NCBI RefSeq assembly: GCF_000430045.1
Contig: NZ_KE387023.1
Span: 342,253-374,737, forward strand
Direction of reading: 5' to 3'
DNA from: Calidithermus chliarophilus DSM 9957
GTDB taxonomy: Bacteria > Deinococcota > Deinococci > Deinococcales > Thermaceae
Length of the DNA stretch: 32,485 bases
Shown here piece by piece: positions 20,261 through 24,579 of this stretch. Each line of letters starts with the position of its first letter. The first letter of the stretch is position 1. The translations under genes were made by a program, and so were the position numbers. The notes under the pieces are model-generated. The model saw only the letters and a program-made list of their open reading frames with translations. It ran no database searches and had not been told where the DNA came from.

Positions 20261-20512
20261 GTGGCTCGCGGCTCGTCGAGGGTATAGGGTCGAGGCGTAC
20301 GACGTAGGACGTAATACCAGATTCGGTTAGTCCGGCGCCGAACGGCGCCGGACTAACCCGACCGAAGGGAGTGCTCTAGGATTCAAAAAGATAGCCTCTG
20401 GAAGTCTTTGGATTGGGTGACTATCTTTTTGAATCCGGTATAAGACGTACGACCGGCGTCTTGCGTCTCGCGTCTTGCGTTTTGCGTACGACGTAGGACG
20501 TACGACCCGTAT
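20261..20512. repeat. Heptanucleotide repeat array 3, split by a palindromic element
   Basis: The left part (20261-20313) holds seven 7-bp units in phase (GTGGCTC, GCGGCTC, GTCGAGG, GTATAGG, GTCGAGG, CGTACGA, CGTAGGA) plus CGTA. The right part (20443-20512) resumes with AGA, CGTACGA, a 4-nt break, then CGTCTTG, CGTCTCG, CGTCTTG, CGTTTTG and CGTACGA-type units. The DNA between (20314-20442) is the MITE-like element. It lies between the divergent recF and ppa genes. Confidence 0.9.
20314..20442. mobile_element. MITE-like palindromic element inserted in array 3
   Basis: Imperfect terminal inverted repeats ATACCAGATTC (20314-20324) and GAATCCGGTAT (20431-20441) match at 10 of 11 positions. Inside are two large hairpins: GGTTAGTCCGGCGCCG (20325-20340) against 20343-20358, and GGATTCAAAAAGATAG (20379-20394) against 20421-20436, each 16 bp perfect. 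Removing 129 bp (element plus one TA) joins CGTA to AGA and restores the heptamer phase, so the insertion apparently duplicated TA. No coding capacity. Its ends differ from the IS630 element at 23.5 kb, so that is not the obvious source. Confidence 0.75.
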
Positions 20513-20562
20513 CAGACGTACGACCTGCCCCCGGCGTCCGGCGTTCAACGATCACCGGCTGT

Positions 20563-23551: not shown

Positions 23552-24579
23552 TTAGATTTTTACCTCCACAGCCCCCAGTAGGTCCAAGGCTTGCAACAGG
23601 GCTTGCTTGAGGTGGGAGAGGCTAGCGTAATGGCGGCGGGGCAGAAGGTAGGCTTTGAGCTTTCTCCAAAAGGTCTCGATGAGGTTGAGCTGAGGGCTGT
23701 AGGGAGGCAAGAAGCGTAGATAGAGGTTTTGCGCTTGCCAGGTTGCCAGCCGAGCCTGGATCAGCTTGGCTTTGTGGAAGCTGGCATTGTCCAGCACCAT
23801 GACCGTGAGCTTGTTTTGCTGGCTGGCTTGTTGGGCCTGCTTCTCAAGAAAAGCCAGTACCGCTTCTTTCGTACATCTACCTTCCAGTACTGCATACTGC
23901 CCGTGCCTCCCAGCGTACGACCAGGCGCCGATGAGATTGATCCGCCCGGCGCCGCCAAAGTATCGGGGAACCCGGCGCTGGTGCGGCTGCCCCTTGAGCG
24001 TCCAGCTATAGCCTATCGGTAAGGTCAGGCCAAACCCACTCTCGTCCAGATACTTCAGAATGACCCGACCTTCGAGCGCCCCCTTTTCAGGGTGTCGAGC
24101 GCCGCTTCAGCCTGTCGCAGCAACTGGGGGTCGGGCTGACCGGCCACGACGTAGCGATCCCGTTTCCAGGCGTAACCCAGTTGCCGGAGGTTGCGTCGCA
24201 CGCTCTCCTCGTCTACCTGGATGCCAAACTCCAGGGCGATGGCTTCCGTCAACTGCCGCGCATTCCAACAGCGGTCTTCCGCCAGCTTATCCCGCATAAA
24301 CTGCAAGGCCTCTGCGTGGAGTTTGCGCCGATTGCCTTTCTGGGGACGATCCGCCAGTCCCTCGAACTTCCGGCTTACCCAGGCATTCAGCGCTGCGCCA
24401 ACCGTCCGCACGTGGCATCCGACATACCCGGCAATCCGGCTCATCTCCCAACGCTGGTTCGACAACCGAATCATCTGACTGCGCAGCCTCACCTTCTTGT
24501 TCATGTGGGGGCTTTGCTCGATAGCCCGCAGTTGTTCATCCTCTTCTTGGCTCAACTCAATGTACCGAAAGTTTCCCAC
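23552..24579 (-). CDS. IS630-family transposase in two frames (probable -1 frameshift)
   Basis: The first frame (24579-24055, GTG start, 174 aa) has helix-turn-helix regions (RLSNQRWEMSRIAGYVGCHV as parts) ending RGRSKVGSF. The second frame is open from 24106 to 23552 and has no ATG or GTG at its beginning; it carries the DDE catalytic set: Asp in LKYLDESGFG, Asp in MVLDNASFH and Glu in QLNLIETFW, with 37 residues between the last two. The fused product would be about 340 aa, normal for the family. The overlap contains AAAAGGGGG (minus strand 24087-24079), where a -1 slip joins the frames. Programmed frameshifting is likely, though a disabling mutation cannot be excluded. GTG 24579 is 6 nt from TAGACT. 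Confidence 0.85.
24079..24087 (-). promoter_or_regulatory. Candidate -1 slippage site in the transposase
   Basis: On the minus strand the run AAAAGGGGG lies in the overlap of the two transposase frames, 24 nt before the first-frame TGA. A -1 slip of ribosome or RNA polymerase here links the helix-turn-helix and DDE parts. Confidence 0.5.

Follow-up and report, generated by a model that had tools for sequence, protein, structure and literature searches.

The element at positions 20315-20440 of the window, by which we mean the whole stretch of 32,485 nucleotides of Calidithermus chliarophilus DSM 9957 that was analysed, is very probably one member of a MITE family of Meiothermus, Calidithermus and Allomeiothermus that is mobilised in trans, inserts at TNA, is built from exchangeable modules and carries a first hairpin that is inverted at the DNA level. 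Copies of the family share their ends, are flanked by duplicated TNA trinucleotides, differ from one another by modules, occupy sites that are empty in relatives, lie on stop codons in excess and carry flipped hairpin loops.

Comparison with other copies sets the edges of the element in the window and gives it a length of 126 bp. The insertion and its surroundings read as follows:

20296..20311, + strand: left part of a heptamer array (CGTACGA CGTAGGA CG), by direct reading
20312..20314, unstranded: first copy of the target duplication, TAA
20315..20324, + strand: left terminal inverted repeat TACCAGATTC, from the comparison of end motifs among copies
20325..20358, + strand: hairpin 1, with arms 20325-20340 and 20343-20358 and a 2-nt AA loop; variable in sequence, covarying, and with an invertible apex
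20359..20378, + strand: linker CGACCGAAGGGAGTGCTCTA
20379..20436, + strand: hairpin 2, with arms 20379-20394 and 20421-20436; little changed in sequence from copy to copy
20431..20440, + strand: right terminal inverted repeat GAATCCGGTA
20441..20443, unstranded: second copy of the target duplication, TAA
20444..20452, + strand: right part of the heptamer array (GA CGTACGA), by direct reading

The arms of the two hairpins are the two perfect 16-bp inverted repeats noticed in an earlier sequence-only reading, and both are confirmed. That reading had described a 127-bp element at 20314-20442 with 10 of 11 matching terminal bases; the element and its terminal inverted repeats are real, but the edges were slightly off, and the ends match at 9 of 10 positions (TACCAGATTC against TACCGGATTC), the extra base on each side being part of the target duplication. 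Folding of the element as single-stranded DNA far exceeds that of shuffled sequences (z = -6.9, 0/200). Excision of the element together with one TAA restores CGTACGA-CGTAGGA-CGTAAGA-CGTACGA, so that the return of the flanking heptamers into phase, as had been claimed, is seen when TAA is the unit removed. The broader proposal, that a MITE inserted into a heptamer array already present and split it, is borne out by dozens more copies and by empty sites in relatives at other loci. A second copy of 211 bp (L245) lies in a CGTAAGA heptamer of another array elsewhere in the same genome, and a heptamer array is found within 100 bp of 19 of the 65 testable copies in genome G000. Arrays of CGTANGA and related heptamers (window 20485-20523; loci such as L245), as well as GCTATCA-like ones, are common beside the elements.

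The sequence-only reading had proposed a search for further copies, the lack of which was to count against it, and many were found. BLAST gives 40 strong matches to the element in its own genome, at 84-100% identity, and the motif TNATACCRGATTC has 203 exact ends there, against 0 for a reversed control pattern. Pattern counts together with individual loci formed the basis of an element census in which 101 elements were extracted from this genome, which holds roughly 100. The family end motif, present at both ends of elements, is TACCRGATTC. In a survey of 111 genomes of the phylum, the TNATACCRGATTC motif reaches high numbers in just three genera, all of one family (g1, to which the window belongs, g3 and g4), with the same ends in Meiothermus and Allomeiothermus and up to 351 exact ends in one g3 (Meiothermus) genome; it is absent from g2 and from all 27 g5 genomes, and outside the bacterial family it gives single matches or one pair only, one of the single matches being read at its locus and found to contain no element. 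Some related genomes carry few or no copies. The RecF protein of the window genome (Calidithermus) is 93% identical to that of Calidithermus roseus.

Elements are also carried by plasmids, in Meiothermus taiwanensis WR-220 and in Allomeiothermus silvanus DSM 9946, and in both cases they sit between annotated genes; the plasmid records gave one full and one partial match to the element, and the phage records searched gave none. A stretch of about 1 kb with an element at L249 (G000:C7:178600-179600) is 92% identical to L038 (G004:C2) across two genera, a likeness in which horizontal transfer is possible; G004 has just one pair of exact ends. Two further loci show unusual arrangements: L164 (G015:C69:24145-24179) is a minimal remnant with two TACCGGATTC ends within 29 bp and differing TNA flanks, while at L093 (G000:C3:2870984-2871274) two elements stand end to end with one TTA in common, as if the duplication made by the first had served as the target of the second.

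The copies define the target site. Among those found by BLAST, for which the flanks were not used, an identical TNA stands on both sides in 29 of the first 30, the lone exception having an IS end joined to one side. A larger set, whose search pattern partly used TNA, has TNA on both sides in 149 of 163 copies, with the same middle base in 136 of these 149, where about 26% would be expected if the two sides were independent; the matching duplications are TAA (45), TTA (36), TGA (29) and TCA (26). The target duplication is thus the trinucleotide TNA, here TAA at 20312-20314 and 20441-20443, although a 1-bp duplication with the ends ATACC...GGTAT yields an identical sequence and is indistinguishable from it by sequence alone. 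The TA duplication of the sequence-only reading is excluded, because the middle base varies between copies and nevertheless matches across the two sides. Insertion at TNA would proceed by a 3-bp staggered cut, with both the transposase class and the cut geometry being matters that we infer.

As a non-autonomous DNA transposon, the element would presumably be moved by a transposase supplied in trans that recognises the 10-bp TACCRGATTC ends. The window itself carries an IS630-type transposase (23552-24579, - strand, with DDE_3 and HTH_32 domains), split over two frames, and every TNA context places T and A at the boundary, as would be expected of a MITE that duplicates TA and is moved by an IS630/Tc1-mariner transposase. 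Such an origin is nevertheless highly improbable, since the duplicated unit is not the TA dinucleotide alone but extends over a variable, matching middle base, and since this IS630 lacks the end motif of the element; its different ends, already pointed out in the sequence-only reading, are confirmed in that the only two end-motif matches in the window are the element's own. The IS5/IS1031 group is characterised by TNA duplications and short inverted repeats, and the element, having both, fits it; from the TNA duplication, this would be our first guess for the transposase class. One genome with 170 exact ends and mostly uniform copies speaks for recent transposase activity. On the other side, ends unlike those of the element, for example CTAGAGGGTGTTA, were seen at the IS5-type loci read; the ends of the PF01609 loci that were read likewise differ, and no transposase gene there lies between a pair of element ends. 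We accordingly give somewhat less than even chances to a TNA-duplicating DDE transposase of IS5/IS1031 type, the sampled genomes having lost its autonomous copy or the searches having missed it there.

PF13359 transposases are absent from all 19 genomes searched, and PF13340 loci have ends other than those of the element. About 35 unpaired ends in five genomes belonged to no autonomous IS and turned out to be decayed or interrupted copies or chance matches, and a pair of ends 3.4 kb apart in G044 with matching TAA flanks proved to be two separate elements. On the mobilising transposase the earlier reading stands, with no same-ended IS among the transposases and unpaired ends examined; the TACCRGATTC ends and the TNA duplication now offer a precise handle for finding it. 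Other insertion sequences do meet the family at several loci. At L118 (G007:C1:3003440-3005500), a copy is seemingly interrupted at a TA in hairpin 2, followed by an ORF resembling an IS630-type transposase. Three separate loci, L028 and L079 in the window genome and L119 on the A. silvanus plasmid (297560-299600), share one junction, in which the right end of the element is broken off at GAATCCGGT and TAGGA[GC]TTACGCAG follows. In L119 this following sequence begins the IS701-like ISMesi2, and the recurrence of the junction suggests a site preference.

Insertion exactly at a stop codon is frequent: a gene's own TAA or TGA serves as the TNA, and after the duplication the gene still has its stop and the protein is unchanged. 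Since one strand of any TNA reads TAA or TGA, such insertions would regenerate the stop and be harmless. To count them, a home-made gene caller, based on codon usage and trained on the loci, delimited stop codons and intergenic regions. Insertions on stop codons number 8 of 47 in G000 and 6 of 40 in G011 (together 14 of 87, about 15%), compared with 74 of 1383 and 41 of 824 other non-coding TNAs (together 115 of 2207), which corresponds to odds ratios against intergenic TNAs of 3.9 (p = 0.003) and 3.6 (p = 0.014), respectively. The excess is approximately fourfold, a figure that rests on the gene caller; it comes from a test restricted to non-coding TNAs, which replaced an initial test on all TNA sites (35% versus 11%). 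Only 5 of the 87 insertions fall inside called genes, though about two thirds of TNAs do. Avoidance of genes is what selection would be expected to produce; the surprise is the surplus on stop codons relative to the other non-coding TNAs. Other insertions lie in intergenic repeat arrays, as in the window, and both orientations of the element are found next to genes.

Empty and filled sites are seen at two genes that were identified by eye, one gdhA-like (its C-terminus resembles glutamate dehydrogenase) and one rtcB-like. The stop codon of the gdhA-like gene carries an element at the same position in two species, G011 (156 bp) and G003 (125 bp), and the site is without an element in five others, where the stop reads TAA (G009, G013 and G015) or TAG (G006 and G017). 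At the stop of the rtcB-like gene, G011 has an insertion and G013 is empty, with TAG as its stop. Among the named relatives that were read, no orthologous empty site exists for the insertion in the window, as recF and ppa are not adjacent there. The G011 and G003 copies, the latter about 31 bp shorter, differ mainly in a single internal module; unless each arose from an insertion of its own, modules come and go in an element that stays where it is.

Copies range from 120 to 474 bp, which is too short to encode a transposase, and are built from the 126-bp core with as many as five hairpin modules added:

M1: about 32 bp, after 20370
M2: 38 bp, after 20366
M3: inside M2
M4: a 22-bp hairpin that takes the place of part of hairpin 1
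M5: about 42 bp, in 1-6 tandem copies, in Allomeiothermus

M2 occurs in tandem in one G044 copy. The interior is a series of interchangeable hairpin modules that have been gained, lost and amplified in tandem from copy to copy, and the family has the fixed end modules and variable number of internal modules that mark BOX-type elements. Two copies in G015 (L158 and L166) hold an additional stretch, AATCGCGTCTGCCACAAACACTCGCCTAG..., which looks like another hairpin module or a nested element.

The two hairpins of the core behave differently. Across 72 distinct copies, both sides of hairpin 1 vary at pair positions 4, 5, 6, 8, 11, 12 and 13 with pairing largely kept, and the covariation is well above shuffled expectation; hairpin 2 gives little covariation signal and is conserved in sequence. 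The four apex bases of hairpin 1 fall almost entirely into reverse-complement pairs (GAAC 43 and GTTC 25, GAAT 27 and ATTC 7, GGAC 5 and GTCC 2, plus GGAT 14), and the single-step intermediates GATC and GTAC are found in none of the copies extracted. In three pairs of copies (L012/L023, L018/L232 and L029/L248), the arms and the 78 terminal bases are the same and AA versus TT at the apex is the sole difference. Inversion can also extend to the whole stem, with GGTCAGTTCGTCCCC-ATTC-GGGAACGAACTGACC being the exact inversion of GGTCAGTTCGTTCCC-GAAT-GGGGACGAACTGACC, and in L020 a 5' arm of one type is paired with a 3' arm of a second type.

Loop flips that lack intermediates point to inversion of a palindrome at the DNA level rather than to selection on RNA. 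Template switching is known to produce compensatory changes and to invert whole loops, as described in the stems of RNA hairpins (PMC8794818), and the pattern of hairpin 1 is what would be expected if its arms were copied onto each other and its loops inverted in this way. The mutations reported there are sparse across rRNA and microRNA genes (PMC8794818), while here compensatory changes and inversions recur in many copies of one palindrome in one genome. Hairpin 1, a near-perfect palindrome, would remain paired independently of RNA selection through a DNA process that copies its arms onto each other and inverts its apex, the likeliest candidate, by our inference, being template switching at replication. 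Recombination between oppositely oriented copies could alternatively have given rise to the loop flips.

The same covariation, the placement at 3' ends and stop codons, and the mild excess of G-T over A-C among arm mismatches of hairpin 1 (25 versus 12 in distinct arm pairs), which would fit some RNA-level constraint, could also be expected of an RNA structure or regulatory cassette that selection maintains (at 3' ends, as an attenuator, a terminator or a stabiliser of mRNA) and that is moved only occasionally. Such a cassette is, however, difficult to reconcile with the flips that lack intermediates, with the occurrence of both orientations beside genes and with the scarcity or absence of copies in some related genomes. 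No Rfam family matches at its gathering score, long copies giving weak, chance-level matches, and the element contains no promoter- or terminator-like site. We hold an RNA under selection to be improbable, and a MITE with a palindrome inverted at the DNA level to be the better description.

Covariation in a hairpin is usually taken as proof of a functional RNA, and a mobile element that combines strong covariation with intermediate-free loop inversions suggests that a DNA mechanism can lie behind it; with about 100 copies per genome, the question is directly testable in a thermophile. The insertions on stop codons illustrate how a selfish element can multiply in a gene-dense genome without breaking genes, and the copies are in themselves a record of how DNA palindromes mutate. 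More tentatively, and with the balance of probability somewhat against it, the family may spread safely in compact genomes by targeting TNA, where a stop codon can be struck and exactly restored, and may carry a self-repairing palindrome that template switching in replication keeps paired and inverts from time to time, dozens of such flips being recorded in one genome.

Non-autonomous elements with terminal inverted repeats and target duplications are well known among bacteria, including Correia/NEMIS, Nezha, MITEAba12 and other MITEs (PMC6382973, PMC2229807, PMC3049150). RUP of Streptococcus pneumoniae, 107 bp long, is likewise a non-autonomous element with terminal inverted repeats and about 100 copies, and has been proposed to be mobilised by IS630-Spn1 (PMC2229807); RUP has TA-containing targets and ends in common with a resident IS, whereas the present element duplicates TNA and shares its ends with none of the ISs examined. 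BOX elements of S. pneumoniae (boxA-boxB(n)-boxC) are similarly built of constant end modules around a changing number of internal ones, some of them in tandem, and both families are short interspersed repeats with many copies per genome and strong secondary structure (PMC3049150). Unlike BOX, the present family has five different internal modules, a TNA duplication and inversion of the hairpin-1 apex; the likeness described here is one of organisation. In the open-licence papers searched, we found no report of modular hairpins combined with stop-codon insertion or loop inversion. The family is thus new within a known kind of element, a modular MITE that duplicates TNA, often on stop codons, and carries a palindrome recording inversion and arm correction.
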